A stretch of 64,000 nt of DNA from Paramyrothecium sp. XJ0827 (Eukaryota; Ascomycota; Sordariomycetes; Hypocreales; Stachybotryaceae): contig JAJFPB010000006.1 in assembly GCA_020881915.1 (NCBI GenBank), positions 1,798,001 to 1,862,000 of the forward strand, given 5' to 3'. The notes under the pieces are model-generated. The model did no database searches. It was not told the origin of the DNA and worked only from the letters and a program-made list of their open reading frames with translations. Numbering within the stretch: position 1 is the stretch's first letter; every line of letters starts with the position of its first letter. Of this stretch, positions 4,805 to 57,502 are shown piece after piece. The translations under genes and the position numbers were made by a program.

Positions 4805-7800
4805 TCATGAGAGCTTAATCTTCTCGTACTTGCACCAGTCCAGATCTGCCATCTTCTCAGGCAGCTCGCCGTTCATGATCCCGTGCACATAGGCCTCACC
4901 TATCAATCGATAGGTTCCGTCGGGATTGTTTGCCAGGACGTACGGCACTTTTGCTCCCTTGATAATGTGCACCTCGTATATAACACCAGGTTCGGTAAAT
5001 ATGGACCGAGGTCCCACGCCGAGCAGCCCCCCCAACGTGGTGAACAGCCTCCTCCCTTCCAGCATGGTCCTCATCCTCTTTTCGAATGCTTGAATCTCAA
5101 CCCTCTCGCTCTCGGTGAACTGCAGCAATGCCAACTCCCGCCATTGGCCATCGACTGCAGCCTGCGGGTCCCCGTCGTAACCTCGTAGATCCCCCGGCGG
5201 TCTCTTCCCGTTCATGAGCTTTTTGAGTCGTGACGCACTAGGGAGAAACGGCTGTTTACTCTCGGAGAACATATACTCCTCATTTTCGCGGTCTTCAATC
5301 TCGGCCAGCTCCTCCAGATTCGCCTGTTCGAGACTGAAATTGACGGTGTCTTTTGTTATGGGGATGTGTCTCTTCTTGTAGATGGCAGCCCATACGGCCA
5401 GTGTTGTCAGGACGCGGCGGGCGGCGGGCCTGGCTATCGATTCGTCATCACTATCAATTGCTTCAAATGATTGGTAGAGATTCCACGTCTCCAGGAGACC
5501 AGCTTCAACCCAGTCCGAGAAGCCATGGCCGAGTGATAAGGGCGCTGGATAGATCACTGGCTTGTGGTCTATGGAGAAACCTGCCCCTGGCCTTGGAATA
5601 GAGTTTCCGGTCAAGGTACGCCATAGAGCTTCAACTCGGGTGATTGACCCAATACGATACCCTCTACTGCGCTTTGTTTCAGCGTCTGCTTCTGGGCGAT
5701 GCTCATTCCTAGATTCTACATCTCGATTAAGCCGTGAATCTTCTCCCAACGAAAGTGTATCACAGGCCTCTGATATTGTGTGGTCTGACGCAGAATCTTT
5801 GTCAGACTCTTCTTGGTTGACTCCGCGCACTGGGTCGTTACTTCTAGGGAACTCATGTTGATACCCGTCGTCCAAGGATACCTGCTTAATGTCTTCTTGA
5901 AGTGACTGTGGCTGGGGTTTCTCTGCTTTTCCGTCTAGCTTTACTTGAGGGACATCAGTCCTTTGTTCCACAGATGGACTCGTCGCTTCTGTTGTGTCTT
6001 TCTGAGATGATATGCTATTGGTAGCCTCGTGAAAGTCAGTCTCACTCCCCTCCTCATCCTCATCCTCTAGATCATGACTCTCGTGGGCAAAAGTCTGCTC
6101 AAGGGCAGCTTCATCATCTTTCCACTCAAGTTCTTCTTCATCTATGAAATCTGGAATCGGATACCAATGTGGTATTCTAAGAATGGACTTCAAGACACCT
6201 AGGACCATGTCGTCCGTGTCGCGATCCACCATCTCGCTCGTTCCGATTGCATCCACTTTGATCGACTCAACTTCAAGCCTTTCATCGGGATTTATTTCGA
6301 ACCAAGCTTGTTTCCCCAGTCCGGAGGCACAAAACACGACATCATCGTCCCCCGTATCGAGAGGTGCGCAGCGAAGTTGGGCGCTGAAGTCGGGCACCCA
6401 CCCAGGCAACTGTTGGACACAAGTGTCACAAGGCTCTTGGACATGCGAGAGGATCGATAACGATTTGTTTGTTCCCATGATAGCCTCGGCGGTCGTCCTG
6501 AACACGGACTGGACTTCAAGCGTGTAGTCAGGGACCAATCCCAGCTTGTCGACGTCAGAGGAGATGTTTAGAAACGCGAAGACCTTGTCGCGCGGGTCCG
6601 TAGCCTCAGTACCCCGGAATAGCCCGAGTACACGAAGAAGGGGAGGAAATATCGTGTATAAGCGGTCTCCCTCCCTCCTAAACCGCCAGAGTAGGTCCCT
6701 AATTGATAGTATGAAAGAGACACCATCTTGGCCGTTTTGAATAAGGCTAGCAGCTTTGAGTCGGTCGTCATTCGAACTGACGTCGCCGTCCTCGTCATCG
6801 TCCCCAAAAGCGATCAGTTTCCGGAGTTGCCGCGTGTTGTCGGAGAGCGGCTCCCCTCTCAGCAAATTTCGCCCGAGTTTCAGGATTTCTGGATGAAGGC
6901 CAGATTTTCGCAGCATCTCAGCCAGTGTACAAATCCATTCCCAGGAATATATCGCCCTGTCATGCAGTACGTCTACATTCTGCCTGCCGAAGATAGCCTC
7001 TTGCGCCACCCAGGCCCGGCGGAACCAGGAGCGATGAAAGAAGGCGAAGATTGCAAACCAGTGGATGAGGTCGATTCCAGGAATTGATGACAGGGTAAGT
7101 TTGCCGTTCCAATTCCAAAGATGATCTGATTCTTGCAACTTATCAAGTGCCTGCATGGCATCAGGTGTCTGGTTGTCCGGCGGTCCCAGCCAGGCAAGCA
7201 CTCGCTTCGCGGTTCGAAAAATTCGACCCATCATTTTGACCTGGGCAGTCCTCTCTTTCATGTCCACTTGGTTGATGCAGAGTGCGTCAATCCATATTGG
7301 GGTTTTCATTGCTTTATGCAAATGATCAACTTCATTGTCTTCTTTTGGTCCTACCCCGAACTTGGACAAGGCATGATGCTTCCAAAGTCGATAGCTTTGG
7401 AGAAACTGGTGGAGGTTTTCCTGAATGTAGACCAGCTGGCCATCCACCTCTATCGGTATTCGTGGTTCTTGAGCTTGGTCCGCGACACGTGGAAGCACTC
7501 CGCGTGCTTCAACGAAAAATTTCATGGCGTGGTCCACGTTGTGGATTGTAATACCCCCGGGGCCCCGAGACTCGAAAACAAATGGCAATTTTCCATAATC
7601 ATTCGGCAGATCGAAATCTTGCGGAGGAGGGACCGGCACCTCTTTGATTGTGATTGGATTCCCCCATGTATAAGACAAGGCCACGTAGGGTGGCGATTCG
7701 GAGTTGTCCAGGTCCAAGGAGGCCAGCTTGCAGGAGATAACATCAGATTCGGAGGGGAGGATGTCGACAACACGGATGCTTGTAGGAGTGGGAAGCGGAG

Positions 7801-7894
7801 GGTACTGGAGAGGGGGAAGCAGTTTCAGCCGGTCAAGCTGAGAAACCAGTTCGGTTTCGCAGGGGCCGAGAGGGTCTGCATTCTCCATTACCAA
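4805..7894 (-). CDS. HET-domain protein (heterokaryon incompatibility family)
   Basis: Single uninterrupted exon, 1029 aa. The N-terminal HET domain shows its three usual blocks: YVALSYTWG at residues 70-78; IWIDALCINQ at 200-209 followed by an ERTAQVKMMGRIF stretch; and WFRRAWVAQE near residue 290. A central part, roughly residues 580-740, is rich in Glu, Asp and Ser and is probably disordered. The C-terminal 270 residues are globular-looking but not recognised. HET proteins act in nonself recognition and regulated cell death in filamentous ascomycetes; which partner this one senses cannot be told. No NACHT, ankyrin or WD repeats are attached. The first Met (MVMEN) is used; the second is two codons in. 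It borders the conserved block and is the last accessory-type gene before it. Confidence 0.92.
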   Translation of the reverse strand: MVMENADPLGPCETELVSQLDRLKLLPPLQYPPLPTPTSIRVVDILPSESDVISCKLASLDLDNSESPPYVALSYTWGNPITIKEVPVPPPQDFDLPNDYGKLPFVFESRGPGGITIHNVDHAMKFFVEARGVLPRVADQAQEPRIPIEVDGQLVYIQENLHQFLQSYRLWKHHALSKFGVGPKEDNEVDHLHKAMKTPIWIDALCINQVDMKERTAQVKMMGRIFRTAKRVLAWLGPPDNQTPDAMQALDKLQESDHLWNWNGKLTLSSIPGIDLIHWFAIFAFFHRSWFRRAWVAQEAIFGRQNVDVLHDRAIYSWEWICTLAEMLRKSGLHPEILKLGRNLLRGEPLSDNTRQLRKLIAFGDDDEDGDVSSNDDRLKAASLIQNGQDGVSFILSIRDLLWRFRREGDRLYTIFPPLLRVLGLFRGTEATDPRDKVFAFLNISSDVDKLGLVPDYTLEVQSVFRTTAEAIMGTNKSLSILSHVQEPCDTCVQQLPGWVPDFSAQLRCAPLDTGDDDVVFCASGLGKQAWFEINPDERLEVESIKVDAIGTSEMVDRDTDDMVLGVLKSILRIPHWYPIPDFIDEEELEWKDDEAALEQTFAHESHDLEDEDEEGSETDFHEATNSISSQKDTTEATSPSVEQRTDVPQVKLDGKAEKPQPQSLQEDIKQVSLDDGYQHEFPRSNDPVRGVNQEESDKDSASDHTISEACDTLSLGEDSRLNRDVESRNEHRPEADAETKRSRGYRIGSITRVEALWRTLTGNSIPRPGAGFSIDHKPVIYPAPLSLGHGFSDWVEAGLLETWNLYQSFEAIDSDDESIARPAARRVLTTLAVWAAIYKKRHIPITKDTVNFSLEQANLEELAEIEDRENEEYMFSESKQPFLPSASRLKKLMNGKRPPGDLRGYDGDPQAAVDGQWRELALLQFTESERVEIQAFEKRMRTMLEGRRLFTTLGGLLGVGPRSIFTEPGVIYEVHIIKGAKVPYVLANNPDGTYRLIGEAYVHGIMNGELPEKMADLDWCKYEKIKLS

Positions 7895-15717: not shown

Positions 15718-17163
15718 CTAATCGCTATGCTCTTGCCCAGAGACCTCTATCTCTGCCTTGCATGTTCGAACATTATGCCCTGTCTTGCCGCAAATGCCAC
15801 AGCGCCTTGGCCTCGGTTGCGATGACCTCCCTTGACCGCCTCTTCTCGACGATTCGGCCACTACCTGACTATCTACTTCTATTTGATCAATTGATGCCTG
15901 ACCTTCGTCTATAGTCATCGTCCCTCCATTACGTAGGCGTTTCTTTATTCCCCTCCGGCGCCGGCTTAGTATTGCATTTGCCTCTCGAAGATCCTTAACC
16001 TCTGACTCTAATAGAGCCATCCTATGGATAATTGCCTTCGTTCCCTTAGAAAAAGACTTTAATGCATCAACAATTGATGCTGGAGAACTGCTCTTATGTC
16101 TTCTAATTTGTCTCTCAATGAATTCGGATTGAGATTCGGTTTCTCTTACTGTCTTTGGGGTTCGTGAGGTCCAAGGGGCAGGAAGCTCTGGCTCATTTAT
16201 AGCAGGCGTTGGAGTTCGTAATCGAATATCAAGCGGCTGGAGTAAATGAGATGAATGAGATGGCATACAGAGCGTAATAATCTTATTCTCCTTGCAGAAA
16301 TCCTCAAAAGCGACCGAATGGTGGCTCTCATGCCCGTCAAGGATCAGAAGACGATAGGCACCATTTGATCTTTTAATTGAATGCCGATTGAAGTGCTTTA
16401 GCCACTGGAGGCCTGTCTCATTATCGGTCCAGCCATTCTTAGTGGTTGCAATAGCCCAATCGCCCGGGAGGTTGCTTTCGCGATACCAGCTAGAGAGGTG
16501 ATATTGGCCTGCAACAATGATGAACGGCGGCAGCGCCCACCCTTCAGCATTGATCGATTCAATCACTGTAACCCATTCACGGTTTCCGGGCTGGATCTTT
16601 TTAGGGTTCGCACGCCTTTCTGCGCCTGTAACGACCATCCCGCTCATAATGACGCCCATCATAAAGCCAGTCTCATCAAAGTTGTACTGATCATCTGATC
16701 TTATGCCGTACTTTGCGATTGTGTTCTCCACGAGCGAAAACCACGCGTTTATCGCGATTGGATCTTCGCATTTGGCCCTCTGGTAGTCATATCTGCGAAA
16801 AAAACGCGTTCTGAGCTCTGGTTGCCGCTTAATAAAATTCGAGGCCCAGCGTGGCCCAACAGGAGGCATCTCTCGCTCAGCAAGCAGTCGATTGGCCATA
16901 TCTTCAACACCACAAAGCCGGGGAGAAAACCCTCGCATATCCAGGTCAAGGATATATTGAACTATTGTCTGTTCCTCAAGATCAGATAGTTTACGTAAAT
17001 TGGCCATAGTATCGCGTCGAGAAGGCATGCCTTGCTTGCGATTACGTAGGCTTGAGAATGGAACCTCATAGATCTGTGATGCGCGTCGTAGGCTTAATTT
17101 TGGGTTAGATTGAAGGGCCTGAAGTGCAAGAATAATACTGGCCTCATTATTAGAGTTTGGCAT
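15718..17163 (-). CDS. Fot1/pogo-family transposase (DDE_1), internally shortened
   Basis: 481 aa, single exon. Order: a psq-type helix-turn-helix (residues about 10-55, ALQALQSNPKLSLRRAS), a second Tc5/CENP-B-type DNA-binding domain (about 60-125), then the DDE_1 core. NFDETGF holds the first Asp, LLILDGHESH the second, and LLQPLD the third with 35 residues between the second and third, the DD35D spacing of pogo elements. Right after the third Asp the protein jumps to RLRTPTP, which in relatives lies much further on, behind another Leu-Asp pair. An inferred deletion of about 80 residues between two LD-encoding sites would explain this. The C-terminus has a coiled-coil-like region and a CCHC zinc knuckle (CGICGKTGHNVRTC). 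The deletion is judged from memory of family layout, not from an alignment. Confidence 0.88.
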   Translation of the reverse strand: MPNSNNEASIILALQALQSNPKLSLRRASQIYEVPFSSLRNRKQGMPSRRDTMANLRKLSDLEEQTIVQYILDLDMRGFSPRLCGVEDMANRLLAEREMPPVGPRWASNFIKRQPELRTRFFRRYDYQRAKCEDPIAINAWFSLVENTIAKYGIRSDDQYNFDETGFMMGVIMSGMVVTGAERRANPKKIQPGNREWVTVIESINAEGWALPPFIIVAGQYHLSSWYRESNLPGDWAIATTKNGWTDNETGLQWLKHFNRHSIKRSNGAYRLLILDGHESHHSVAFEDFCKENKIITLCMPSHSSHLLQPLDIRLRTPTPAINEPELPAPWTSRTPKTVRETESQSEFIERQIRRHKSSSPASIVDALKSFSKGTKAIIHRMALLESEVKDLREANAILSRRRRGIKKRLRNGGTMTIDEGQASIDQIEVDSQVVAESSRRGGQGRSSQPRPRRCGICGKTGHNVRTCKAEIEVSGQEHSD

Positions 17164-46243: not shown

Positions 46244-49200
46244 ATGGGAATTTACGAGACACTCACGGGGGCACAGCGAGGCTTGCCTCTACCACCCTTA
46301 TTCGGCCAAGTATTGACGATCATCCTCAAGCAACACGACGCGGGAACCCAACAGGCTCTGCTCACAATTATTCGAGAATTGGCCGAGAATACAGCCAAGG
46401 ATCCACAATGCGGACTTGTTGTAGCCTTCAACCCCAGCCTTTGGGGCACATGGACCAAACGTACAATCCCCATTCAGACGGATGTCCTCGGTCGCGGCAT
46501 TAAGTTCTGCAACAATGGGGGTGATGTCCTCTTGTACGTCAAAGCACCCAATAAAGGCTCAGCTGCCAAGCTCGTTTCAACTGTTTGGGACCGCTTGCAT
46601 GCTCTTTCTGAGAGTATCGACGCTGTCCCAGCAGGCAAGCGAAAGGACATACGCGTTCCTGGTGGACGCTACAATGAAGGTATCACCAACCCAAACGACC
46701 CTGTCAGTTTGACCGAGGATATCCTCATCAGTGATCGGTCGCAATCCAGACGGCGCTTCGCTTCCTCAGCATGCTACTCACTCGCACATCCATCGGGCAC
46801 ACGTAAAAGACAAGGACCAGAATCAACGCAAACTTTTGCGCCAAGCACTTTCCTTTGGGAACAGCGCAGGCCATGCTGGTCGTGAGAAGGGGCTCATGTT
46901 TGTTGCGTTCTGTAATGAGCAGCCTCGCTTCGAGAAGATTCTCAAAAATCTTCTAGGCGACAAGCCAGAGAATCATTTGGATAGGCTTATGGATGTTGTT
47001 GAAGCTAAAAGCGGCGGCTACTGGTACGTCCCTGCGGCTAAAGAATTGGGAATACCCGGCGTCAGCGGTCGCGATGACATCGTCGAGGAGCCTCACTGGA
47101 GTGTCAGAAGTCCCAACGGATACATGTTTTATAACTCCCAGGATTGGCTTCACCAGATGTCGGGGCGCCAATACATTGGGGGCGATCCTCCCAGTGATCG
47201 TATTCTGAGCTTGATGGCAAGAACATTCTCACACTGGCGCGACGGGTGGATGGACAGGCGGAACTTTCCGCGATTGCCTCATCTAACCGACTTCTTTGAG
47301 AAGGATGAGGAGAAGAAAGCGATTATGCAAGAGCCGGTACCGGTTCGCAAAGCTATGGCCAATTTCAAGACCCTGGAACTGACGCTGTCGGCACCGGACT
47401 CATTGACGGCCAAGTACAACGGACTGCTTCGCATTCTTCCAAACGAACTCATCGTGGGAGTAGTCCCCGACTTTACTCTGGGGCGCGGCAAAGAAGTTGT
47501 GCCCTACTTAAGCAAAGATGAAACCGTAGCTGCTTGGCTGGACAAGACACTGAACGAGTGGGCTGCCATGGGCCACGTTGTGCCTGATTTTGAGAAGTTG
47601 GTGAAAGAGGGCTTGGGCAAGATCAGAAACGAATTGCAAGCTAAGATGGACAGCGCCAAGCAGGCCAAAGACCCCAAATCAGCCTTCTTCCGCTCGGGAA
47701 TGATCTCAATTGAGGCCGTACAGAAATACCTTTGCAACTGGGCAACCATTGCAGAAACTACAGCTTCAGATGCTGCAGATGCAGGCGACAAGGCGAACAT
47801 GAACGATGTCGCACAGCGGCTCGCCTATCTTGTGAACAATCCTCCGCGAGACTTTCACGACGCGGTTCAGCTTGTCTTTTCCATGCACTGTTGTCTGCAT
47901 CTGGTTGGGGAATTGACTGCCTTGGGCCGCTTGGATCAGATCTTCTGGCCTTTCTTGGATAATGATTTGAAGGGGGGTAAGATCTCGATGGACCGCGCAC
48001 AAGAGATTATCGACTGTCTTTTTATGAAGATCGGCGAGAACGCGTTCGTGAACCGCGCATTTATCTACGATTATATCACCTACGGAACCACAGCTGTTTG
48101 CGGCGTAGGAGGCAATTTCCCACAGGGCGGTGGCATCAATCAATGGGTTCAGCAGATCACTGTTGGAGGTTACAAAGCTTTGGACGGTGACACTGGTGAG
48201 GGAGGTGCCAACCCAGTGACTCTGCTGTGTCTGAAAGCGGCGCGGCGTATTCCCGTGAATGCCCCAACGCTCTCACTTCGGGTGTACAAGGACATGCCAG
48301 AAGAGTTCCTTGATGAAGCTGCAAAGGCCATTATTGCAGGCGGCGCCCAGCCTATCCTGTTTAACGACGATAAATTGTGCGAGGGTCTATTTCGCTCTGG
48401 TAATGGTCTTGTCAGCCGCGCATGGTCGCGGAATTACGCTGCGGACGGTTGCTACGAGCCTATGTTCGCGGGTGCTTCTGAGTTTACGTTCAACAATGTG
48501 GCACCCATGCTTGCCCTTGAGCAGACGCTCAATCAAGGTGCAACATACGGTGCAGCCGGGCCGGAGAGCCTGCGGGGCTTGAAGCAAACATTCCGTTCGC
48601 CTCCAGCCGCTAAGATCATGACGTTCAAGATGCTAAAGGATATCTTCTTGGAGCAACTCGAATGGCTTGTCATCCAGTGTTACAAGGTGATGCTGGAGAA
48701 CTATGGCAACCTCGCGGAGATTTGCCCCAGTCCTTTACTCTCAGTGTTCATTGATGGCTGTGTGAAGAGTGGCCTTGACCTTACCAACGGCGGAGCACGC
48801 TTCCACATCATGGCACCACTGTGCGTAGGTGTTCCGAACACTATAGACTCTTTATTCGCAATCAAAAAGCTAGTCTACGACGCGGACACGGCCATCACAA
48901 CTCTTGCTGACATGACTGACTGTCTGATCAACGACTGGGGTTTCAACATGATTGAGCCTTTCGAGGATCGTCATCTCGGCCCTGCTACTACCGCTCAATA
49001 TGCGGTTCGATATCAGCAGCTCAGAGAAGTAGCGCTGGCACTGCCTAAATGGGGCAGTGGTGATGAAGAAGTCAACGAATTGGGTGATTGGCTCATCGAG
49101 AACATGGTCCGGCTCTGCGTTGAGAAGATCAAGTCCCCAGCCCTGAAGCAGAGGCTGGATGATATAGCCAAGACTCATGGGACGGATCTTAAATTTGTCG

Positions 49201-49676
49201 TTACGCCCGGTATCGGCACGTTCGAAGGCTACGTCGGTGACGGTGCCCCGTGCGGAGCGTCAGCAGATGGCCGCCGCAATGGTATGCCCATCGCCTCGGA
49301 CCTTTCACCAACGCCAGCCGCACAGGATCTTCCAGCCAATCCTGCATTCCGAAACATTTACCAAGCCATGAAGAGCTGCAAATCCGACGCCGTGACGTAC
49401 GGGCTATCAAACGCTTCCCCTGTCGACATGAACATCGATGAGAAGTTTCCGCTAGAGGATCTGAAGAAGTTTGTCAAGGCCTATGCTAGGGGCGAGGTTG
49501 GTGGAAACCTGATCACTCTGACGTGCGCGGACCTGAAGACATACCAAGAAGCCGACAAGGACCCGGAGAAGTACAACTTGGTACGGGTTAGAATGGGAGG
49601 CTGGACGGAGTTCTATGCTACAATGTTCCCGGCACACCAGGATCAGCACCAGCGCAGGCAGTATTTCACGCCTTAG
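46244..49676 (+). CDS. DyP-type peroxidase fused to a glycyl radical enzyme (PFL superfamily)
   Basis: Starts at ATG 46244 (ACCATGG). The first module resembles YfeX-type DyP heme peroxidases: GLVVAFNPSLW, GDVLLYVKAP, GITNP, SHIHRAHV (heme-ligand His at 46785-46787), RQALSFGN (distal Arg) and GGYWYVP. After a linker (YMFYNSQDWL) comes a full glycyl-radical module: FHDAVQLVFSMH, GRLDQIFWPFLDND, GGANPVTLL, the cysteine loop DGCYEPMF (Cys 48450-48452, Glu two residues later), TLSLRVYKDMPEEF, and the radical loop RMGGWTEF (Gly 49599-49601) near the C-terminus. At 46730 the reading frame changes and about 40 residues of the DyP fold are missing. A 52-nt GT-AG intron at 46680-46731 would restore the frame (1126 aa) but removes GITNP. 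The second frame alone is open for 981 codons. Substrate unknown. Confidence 0.82.
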
Positions 49677-50418: not shown

Positions 50419-51733
50419 ATGGTTGCCAAGAACGTTGCACTGCTCAGCCTTGTGGCATCAGCCTTAAGCCAGCTCGATGCTATACCCGAAGGCTTCAGTA
50501 AGGACCGTTGGGCCTGGGTGTCCAACGAAGATCCCTTACTTGCTGTCATCCCAGGGCATTTCAATCGCACGATTTTCGAGGCGCCCTCTGCGGGCAATGT
50601 GACGGACGAAAGGGTTGCTGCCATGTAAGTTACAGGATGTGCCTACTTTTTCTGGCTACCCACTGACAATTTTTGCACAGTAACCAACAAATCAACCAAA
50701 CTAGTTTCGTTGCATACGACCAACGATTCTTCGATATCATTGGACCCGATGCTACCGTTGAGCAACTTCAGGTCTTACCCTTCCAGGTCCATGAAGCCCC
50801 TTGCCACATCCCGGATAAATCACAGCTATTCTTTGTGGAGTGGGGGCCACCCGGTGGTGAGAATGGCACCCATGACTATCAGTATGTGTTGGATCTCAAA
50901 ACCAACAACCTGACCACTGTACGGACGAATCCTCCCACATACAATGTGCACGGATGCGTGTTCCAGAACGGCAAGCTTCACATCGTCACCGACGGAGGGC
51001 CAGACGAAACTCCGTATCTGGCTACTATAGACCCCAACACCTGGGAGCGCAAAACAATCCTCAACAACTACTACGGGCGACCATTCATCAGCTTCAACGA
51101 CCTAGAGCTTGACAAGCAGGGAAACTACTACCTCACTGATTCATTCTCTGGCTGGGTACGTTATTTCCGGAAGCATGACTTATTTCAAACTAATTGGTAC
51201 AGGGACGCGATTTGCACCCCTACTCCGCTCCAACTCGTCCCACTGTCTATTTCGTGAACGGCACAACTCTCCGTCCCAAGGAATTGGCATTCTTGCAAAA
51301 CGGCAACACTAATGGCATCACGCTTTCTCCCGACGGCAAGACGCTCTACTTGGCGGATACTGGTGCCTCAGAGGTGAAGCCTTCTAGGCGCAACTTCCAA
51401 GGTCCCCGCGACCTGTGGGCTTGGGATTTTGCAACCTCGTCCACGGGAGAAAGGCTGCCACTGCTGGTAAACCAGCGGCTACTTAGTAGGGCAATGCAAT
51501 ACTTCTATGACGGCATCCGTGTGAGTCGTAGCGGGTGGATCTTTGGGGCAGGAGGAGAAGTTGTCGACATTATTGATCCGGAGTCCGGCTGGACTCTTGG
51601 TTCTATCCGGTTTGGTGGAGGAGGCAATGACCCGGTCAATCTGGTTCTAGGTGACCATGAACTGTGGGTGGTTGGGAAAGGGGGCGTTTGGCATGTAAAG
51701 AACATTCGCGAAAGGCTTGATCACAAGGAATAG
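50419..51733 (+). CDS. Secreted SMP-30/gluconolactonase-like protein
   Basis: Exons 50419-50624, 50681-51155 and 51203-51733 give 403 aa. Residues 1-18 are a signal peptide (NVALLSLVASALS). The body is a six-bladed propeller of the SMP-30/gluconolactonase type: HEAPCHIPDKSQLFFVEWG, NVHGCVFQNGKLHIVTDGG, SFNDLELDKQGNYYLTDS, NGITLSPDGKTLYLADTG, FYDGIRVSRSGWIFGAGG. The metal-binding Glu (HEAP), Asn (FND) and Asp (YDG) positions of the family appear present. Likely reaction: hydrolysis of a lactone outside the cell. Fungal secreted members are common but poorly characterised. It follows the DyP/GRE fusion on the same strand by 742 bp, which allows but does not show a shared pathway. Confidence 0.86.
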
Positions 51734-56431: not shown

Positions 56432-57502
56432 ATGGATCTCCGCATTGAACTCGGGGATTCGCCCGCCGAACGACGCCGCCAGCAAAATCGCTTGGCACAA
56501 CGTAGATGGCGCGGTGAGTTTATACAGTACTTCTGAATCACTACAGCATCCGAACTTCTAGTACAATGCTAATTTTTCAAGATAGAGAAGAAATTCCAGC
56601 GTCTCGGCACTTCGAGAAATTCATCTGAGAACACTTCAGCAGCAACAGAAACCTCGACTACAGGAACAAAAGCTTGCTCATCCATTGCGTATCAGGGCAT
56701 GACACTTAATCCGTCAGCCAATAATCTTCAACCCAATACTTCGGATTTGGACACCAGTTTCCTGGATTGGAACGCCATCGCAGGCTCTCTGAGCACCAAT
56801 AGCATTTCTGTTAGTTCGTCATCAGGACTGCCGGAGCTTGGCGATGGAATCCTCCTTCTTGAAGATTCTTTGCCTGCCTCTGAAGGGCGACCAGGCCTCG
56901 GTTACCTCAATCTCACCACGTTGCAAAGCACAACAAACAACGATGTCAACGTCATTGCTTCGCAAAGATCCCCATGGCTTGATAAGCAGCTTCGTATGGC
57001 ACCAAAGCCGCTTAATCATGTCGGCTGGCTTAATGTGCTCCATATTGCTGCTCAAGAGGGACACGGGCACATGGTGAAGATGCTCCTGCAGCATGGTCTT
57101 GACCCCAATGAGCACGACAGCGACGGCTTGACGCCACTGATGCACGCGAGCATCGAAGGCCACCAGGATATTGTCCATGTACTCCTCACTCATGGAGCAC
57201 GAATAGGCGTTGCTGACCATGAGAATCGAACTGCACTCCATTGGGCTGTCTTACACCAACGTGAGAGTATCCTTCTTACCCTACTAGAGCATAACTCAGC
57301 AACAAGCCCGGAGGATACAACTCAGAATATGGCGGCAACGACTCGTCTTGACGTCAACGCTTACGACGATGCAGGATGGGCTCCCCTGCACATGGCGGTC
57401 GACCGTGGATTCGAGGCTGGTGTTCGTATCCTGATTCAACACGGCGCCAACATGAGTTTTATGGCACGGAAGTGTCCATACTCGGGCACGAATGGGACTT
57501 AA
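56432..57502 (+). CDS. ToxE-like basic-ankyrin (bANK) transcription regulator
   Basis: Exons 56432-56513 and 56586-57502 give 332 aa. Residues 12-30 are a bZIP-type basic region (ERRRQQNRLAQRRWREKK), split by the intron after its second WR; no leucine zipper follows. A Ser/Thr/Asn-rich linker leads to about four ankyrin repeats: NVLHIAAQEGHGHMVKMLLQ, GLTPLMHASIEGHQDIVHVLL, RTALHWAVLHQRESILLTLL and GWAPLHMAVDRGFEAGVRIL. A basic region without zipper plus ankyrin repeats is the architecture of ToxE, the pathway-specific activator of the HC-toxin genes of Cochliobolus carbonum, and of related regulators of secondary-metabolite clusters. No synthase gene is present in this window. The C-terminus after NMSFMARK may be mis-ended if another intron exists. 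Confidence 0.85.

Follow-up and report, generated by a model that had tools for sequence, protein, structure and literature searches.

Canonical glycyl radical enzymes (GREs) are switched on by a radical-SAM activase, the gene for which is often adjacent, and in every GRE of known activation of which we are aware the radical is delivered by a radical-SAM enzyme with oxygen absent. A DyP-B/PFL fusion from the ascomycete Chaetomium cochliodes was published in BMC Genomics in 2016 with its role left open (PMC5041501). That paper notes the fusion in other prokaryote and eukaryote genomes, proposes transfer from proteobacteria, and mentions, for C. cochliodes, a putative PFL activase; the fusion gene was induced 3-fold with H2O2 and 18.5-fold with peroxyacetic acid (PMC5041501). 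The architecture, its proposed bacterial origin and its peroxide induction are already in print. A limited literature search yielded no other paper on a DyP-GRE fusion: the fusion passages of PMC4420034 concern other peroxidases, and PMC9064869 does not mention the terms searched for. The activase count given below may itself already be printed. New here are the conservation of both catalytic sets, a relative modelled as two whole folds, the activase counts and a Trp/Tyr cluster at the domain junction.

The window, the whole stretch of DNA analysed here, comprises 64,000 nucleotides of Paramyrothecium sp. XJ0827, whose genome amounts to 51.8 Mb in 15 contigs. Positions 46244 to 49676 of its forward strand encode a DyP-type region and, after it, a GRE region, both matching their Pfam models far above chance (PF20628, E=4e-16; PF02901, E=1.5e-108). 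This domain order, and an ascomycete host, are shared with the C. cochliodes fusion (PMC5041501); what differs here is that the window copy is broken and that no canonical activase was found in those prokaryote genomes whose PFL-like proteins are fusions only. Among the listed homologues the closest is P0001, a single 1177-aa protein of Paramyrothecium foliicola that shares 92% identity with the window over its long ORF. In the features below, the roles given to residues are those usual for DyP and GRE catalytic sites, and fractions of 109 or 108 refer to a conservation set: those 109 of the 120 listed sequences that are 1000-1260 aa long, all drawn from a single search that used the window protein as query, and related by selection.

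46244..46729, + strand: N-terminal part of the DyP module (MGIYETL...EDILI, 162 codons) in a single frame; 81.8% identity to P0001 residues 1-160, and also matched by tblastn.
46676..46678, + strand: acid of the GxxDG heme motif, here Glu (GRYNEG), from the sequence and the alignment of relatives.
46730..46733, + strand: frame break, where 4 nt replace 34 codons of P0001, a net shortening of ~98 nt with a shift of frame, from tblastn and comparison with P0001.
46734..47051, + strand: C-terminal part of the DyP module in a second frame (PF20628, E=4e-16).
46785, 46839 and 47022, + strand: proximal His, distal Arg, and the Trp of the GGYWYVP end of the DyP module.
47019..47249, + strand: DyP end together with the junction and the first helix of the GRE (P0001 residues 292-368), a stretch with many conserved Trp/Tyr.
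47172..49673, + strand: complete GRE module (P0001 residues 343-1176).
47574..47576, + strand: GRE His (AMGHVV), conserved in 109/109 and aligning with H164 in glycerol dehydratase 1r8w.
47886..47900, + strand: HCCLH motif in the GRE half; His 109/109 and 108/108, Cys 96/109 and 104/109.
48450..48458, + strand: catalytic loop Cys-Tyr-Glu (GCYEP), with Cys at 48450 and Glu at 48456, each 109/109.
49590..49604, + strand: glycyl-radical loop R-M-G-G-W, with the radical Gly codon at 49599 and Trp at 49602; both 108/108 among sequences with letters there.

An earlier note on this DNA had described a DyP-type module with heme-ligand His, distal Arg and GGYWYVP end, followed by a full glycyl-radical module with a Cys loop and a C-terminal Gly loop, and all of these were found. 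Its further statement, that both modules lie in one gene, holds for the relatives, in which the fusion is genuine, but not for the window copy, which is frame-broken at 46730-46733. Elsewhere in the window are an open frame with a HET (heterokaryon incompatibility) domain (4808-7894, - strand; E=1.5e-23), what looks like a DNA transposon gene with DDE_1 endonuclease and HTH_psq domains (15721-17163, - strand), which we take to be of the pogo/Fot1 type, and an ankyrin-repeat protein (56699-57502, + strand). Downstream of the fusion, two overlapping frames at 50673-51733 (+ strand) are perhaps one intron-bearing gene; the second shows weak similarity to SMP-30/gluconolactonase, falling just short of the cut-off.

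The break places the first 162 codons of the DyP half and the remainder in different frames, and on our reading no intron of usual length could join them without losing further DyP core. In the model of P0001, residues 171-180 form one strand of the DyP fold and belong to the missing piece, so the DyP half of the window copy can hardly be expected to fold as a peroxidase. The DyP domain is indeed not intact by profile: the frame of the N-terminal part alone matched no Pfam DyP model, and the window copy reaches 62.2 bits against a TIGR01413 cut-off of 100.5. Real and recent pseudogenisation, leaving a locus that now does nothing, is a reading of the window copy for which the balance is even. 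The replacement of 34 codons by 4 nt with a change of frame speaks for it, as does the lack of any such gap in the five relatives P0001-P0005. Against it, the GRE frame is open over 981 aa with no stop and the N-terminal part of the DyP half is undecayed, its 81.8% identity to P0001 comparing with 76.9% between P0001 and P0002; this part shows no excess divergence, and the break is therefore either recent or an assembly error. The Glu of the GxxDG motif was considered as a sign of decay and rejected, P0002, P0003 and P0009 sharing it as a lineage variant. Unless the assembly is at fault, the window copy has probably become a pseudogene recently, or would at best supply a GRE lacking its igniter.

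Profile searches place the GRE half in a broad family and outside the named ones. The core claim of the earlier note, that the C-terminal half is PFL-like, stands, with PF02901 matched over its cut-off. The Pfam Gly_radical model scores 16.2 bits in the window against a cut-off of 22.2, and in the fusions scanned it was below cut-off or not listed; a TIGR01774 match spans the Gly loop of the window GRE at a score far below its cut-off. An ordinary pyruvate formate-lyase was rejected (TIGR01255, 33.4 bits against 994.2), and the other listed NCBIfam GRE equivalogs (choline lyase, hydroxyproline dehydratase etc.) gave 128.8-171 bits against cut-offs of 1000-1150. Identity to glycerol/propanediol dehydratase-like GREs (1r8w, 5i2g, PflD 8yjo, CutC 5fau) is ~20-25%. 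The fusions differ from these in carrying a heme domain with no canonical activase found, and in reading GCYE and RMGGW where the aligned dehydratase-like GREs read GCVE and RVAGY; the radical Gly is followed by Trp, as opposed to Tyr in the three aligned GREs, and the position aligned with D447 of 1r8w is variable across the fusion family. The HCCLH motif, perhaps a metal or disulfide site, is missing at the equivalent place in those three GREs.

Membership of the DyP half in its family was supported by model matches together with the proximal His, the distal Arg and the GxxDG acid. PF20628 was over its cut-off in all five fusions scanned, and TIGR01413, with its cut-off of 100.5, gave 124.9 bits for P0001 and 99.5 bits for P0049. 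Relative to YfeX/KpDyP peroxidases (5gt2, 6fks), with which identity is ~22%, the fusion DyP is joined to a GRE and its heme-motif acid is Asp, or Glu in a few relatives. The fungal genome also holds a second, separate DyP-type gene (L001, G000:C10:4316918-4317412; PF20628, E=7.8e-50).

Homologues were sought with the window protein: of the 7993 candidates with most words in common that were scored, 319 proved homologous and 120 were listed. Both PF20628 and PF02901 occur in one protein in 111 of these 120 (counted by eye), bacteria included, and the possibility that the fusion is an annotation artefact was rejected on the abundance of such single-protein homologues. The remaining nine are shorter (583-930 aa), and the five of them that were aligned match P0001 from residue 251-421 through to its end. 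Named sources include Sordariomycetes, one Dothideomycete, lichen fungi, Betaproteobacteria and Chloroflexota. Two short peptide patterns, scanned over genome contigs, picked out 12 fusion loci in prokaryotes, including those of Pseudomonas cichorii, Archangium, a Rhodobacter MAG and a Saprospiraceae MAG; the scan overlooks members without those peptides, such as L035, and the rarity of the fusion holds only at that sensitivity. A distant fusion group (L022, L035 and L038; the first two also by Pfam) has a longer N-terminus and ~36% identity to P0049, and seems, judged by eye, to carry Glu as the GxxDG acid. Of the two DyP-GRE fusions in Archangium violaceum, L020 resembles P0049 (47%) and L038 belongs to the distant group (37%).

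Across the 12 prokaryote loci no cluster of non-fusion ORFs was common to more than two, where the picking of flanking ORFs in GC-rich DNA was crude (at L020 an antisense frame replaced the fusion gene) and several flanks were short. In half-by-half and whole-protein trees (FastTree) the three distant sequences did not form a clade, so a midpoint root was used. In the GRE and whole-protein trees the smallest clade with all the named fungi includes ten named betaproteobacteria as well (support 0.72 and 0.83, respectively); the corresponding clade of the DyP tree includes none (support 0.86).

Within the conservation set, related by choice as it is, the proximal His, distal Arg, catalytic Cys, Glu and GRE His are each invariant (109/109), and the radical-loop Gly and the Trp after it are present in all 108 sequences with letters there. 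The GxxDG acid is D in 104, E in four and N in one, one of the E rows (P0089) being divergent and doubtful. Both enzyme halves appear, from these alignments, to be under constraint. A single-chain model of P0001 (pTM 0.92) predicts two whole folds, with the radical loop as its least confident part. Eight of the 20 Trp/Tyr of P0001 that are conserved at ≥97% fall in residues 292-368, a region picked after the list of conserved residues had been viewed.

A canonical activase was taken to be a TIGR02494 match at E<=1e-10. Two of the 12 fusion genomes have one, both Andreprevotia, each with a separate ordinary GRE near the activase. The other ten, whose PFL-like proteins are fusions only (the second Archangium copy being counted as a fusion by tblastn), have none, and neither does an eleventh fusion-only genome, G217, giving 0/11 in total. 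This last came from a control sample of 300 genomes from the order of one Andreprevotia, 31 of which have a PFL-like protein. TIGR02494 was matched in 29 of the 31, strongly in 28 (E<1e-34) and weakly in one (G042, 2.5e-12); the two without a match are G217, a fusion, and G157. Thirty genomes, G003 among them, have an ordinary GRE, as judged by frame length (569-1020 aa) and not by a DyP search, and a strong match occurs in 28; in the exceptions, G157 and G042, the GRE lies at a contig end. The comparison of 0/11 fusion-only genomes with 28/30 carrying an ordinary GRE gives a Fisher p of 2.5e-8, uncorrected for relatedness. Activases encoded near the canonical GRE were also seen in control genomes, and in a further 14 named controls all three with a PFL-like match also match TIGR02494.

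Weaker similarities were followed with TIGR02493, which had two matches over its cut-off in the 12 fusion genomes, both in Andreprevotia. All ten weak matches in the ten fusion-only genomes among those 12 lie closer to QueE (three, two of them under cut-off), PqqE (three), NrdG2 (two), AmmeMemoRadiSam (one) and RlmN (one); Andreprevotia gave a further four weak matches. NrdG2, the activase of another GRE class, is present in two of the 12 fusion genomes, Janthinobacterium and Massilia. In two isolates, Paracidovorax anthurii and Collimonas humicola, the radical-SAM loci listed number 24; 16 were scanned, the other eight were assigned by the cysteine motif of a scanned counterpart, and no activase was recognised among them. 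The scanned loci comprise MoaA, MiaB, LipA, RimO, HemN, HemW, BioB, RlmN, the PA0069 family (two), YgiQ and QueE, along with four (L053, L054, L057 and L060) below every family cut-off, whose best matches are peptide/protein maturases or B12-type methyltransferases. No CX3CX2C motif was found among the ORFs picked, crudely and with some short flanks, beside 12 fusion genes.

The fungal genome has one PFL-like protein and no TIGR02494 match at E<=0.001. Seven radical-SAM loci were found at E<=0.01, six of which, on their sequence motifs, we read as MoaA, LipA, BioB, viperin-like, Tyw1 and Elp3. The seventh, L010, lies under every activase cut-off and is the sole activase candidate found there; we take it to resemble PflX. 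As a query it had no match in the 12 fusion genomes at E<=1e-5, and it matched 28 of 101 genomes from the phylum of the Chloroflexi MAG fusion genome.

Taken together, these counts favour radical formation without a canonical activase, with the fused peroxidase as the obvious candidate igniter. Our leading interpretation, held at somewhat less than even confidence, is that the family consists of GRE lyases or dehydratases in which the radical is made in cis by the DyP heme and peroxide, replacing the activase. Reaction of the heme with H2O2 or some organic peroxide would yield an oxidising equivalent, which the aromatic residues at the junction would relay to the Gly-Trp loop or to the Cys. 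The resulting radical would be the one that canonical GREs receive from a radical-SAM activase, and the GRE half would then perform Cys-thiyl chemistry on a small substrate. The earlier note had speculated that the heme, and not a radical-SAM activase, forms the radical. That idea, still a hypothesis, gains support from the finding of a canonical activase in 0/11 fusion-only genomes, although the fungus has its PflX-like protein. The conservation of both active sites, the two-fold model of P0001 and the Trp after the radical Gly also point towards heme ignition, and the peroxide induction of the C. cochliodes gene may be counted with them (PMC5041501).

Several observations weigh against ignition by the heme. 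Firstly, radical-SAM proteins that might serve are at hand, in the PflX-like protein of the window genome, the NrdG2 of Janthinobacterium and Massilia, and the four proteins of the two isolates that reach no family cut-off. Secondly, the window copy retains an open GRE frame despite its broken DyP half. Thirdly, the radical loop is where the predicted structure is least confident, and the junction Trp/Tyr cluster may be only packing. Finally, O2 cleaves glycyl radicals, a problem that having the heme in cis would not in itself remove.

A doubtful but substantial alternative is that the DyP half removes peroxide to guard the GRE, which would be activated by an unrecognised radical-SAM protein, PflX-like in fungi and NrdG2 or another in bacteria. 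The L010 protein and the NrdG2 of two fusion genomes are consistent with such protection, as are the putative activase and the peroxide induction of C. cochliodes (PMC5041501), the latter fitting it equally well as it fits ignition. The PflX-like protein is, however, found in 0/12 fusion genomes with a query able to find distant bacterial matches, and neither the radical-SAM loci of the two isolates nor the crudely picked neighbouring ORFs, searched for CX3CX2C, disclosed an activase. The lack of a match leaves room for an activase of novel type, and protection combined with such an activase may apply, above all in fungi.

It is improbable that the GRE half works without a glycyl radical, as a binding scaffold or by heme-fed thiyl or non-radical chemistry for the DyP: the missing canonical activase and the sub-threshold or unlisted Gly_radical matches would suit it, but Cys, Glu and His at 109/109 and Gly at 108/108 in relatives down to ~47% identity to P0001, and the retention of GCYEP and RVRMGGW by L035 and L038 of the distant group, make a dead GRE half unlikely on sequence grounds.

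Returning to heme ignition, class I and class III ribonucleotide reductases, two ways to a thiyl radical, offer a working analogy of an oxygen-driven beside a SAM-driven route, in proteins unrelated to the DyP domain. The fungi and bacteria that bear the fusion live in air. We regard it as a possibility, to be held tentatively, that they have in this family a self-igniting GRE, in which a fused heme peroxidase and peroxide stand in place of any radical-SAM activase and bring GRE chemistry to air-living organisms. If true, this would to our knowledge be the first GRE activation route without S-adenosylmethionine, and a GRE needing no iron-sulfur helper. A GRE family of air-living organisms that carries its own peroxidase, and for which no canonical activase was found, makes a peroxide-driven route directly testable.
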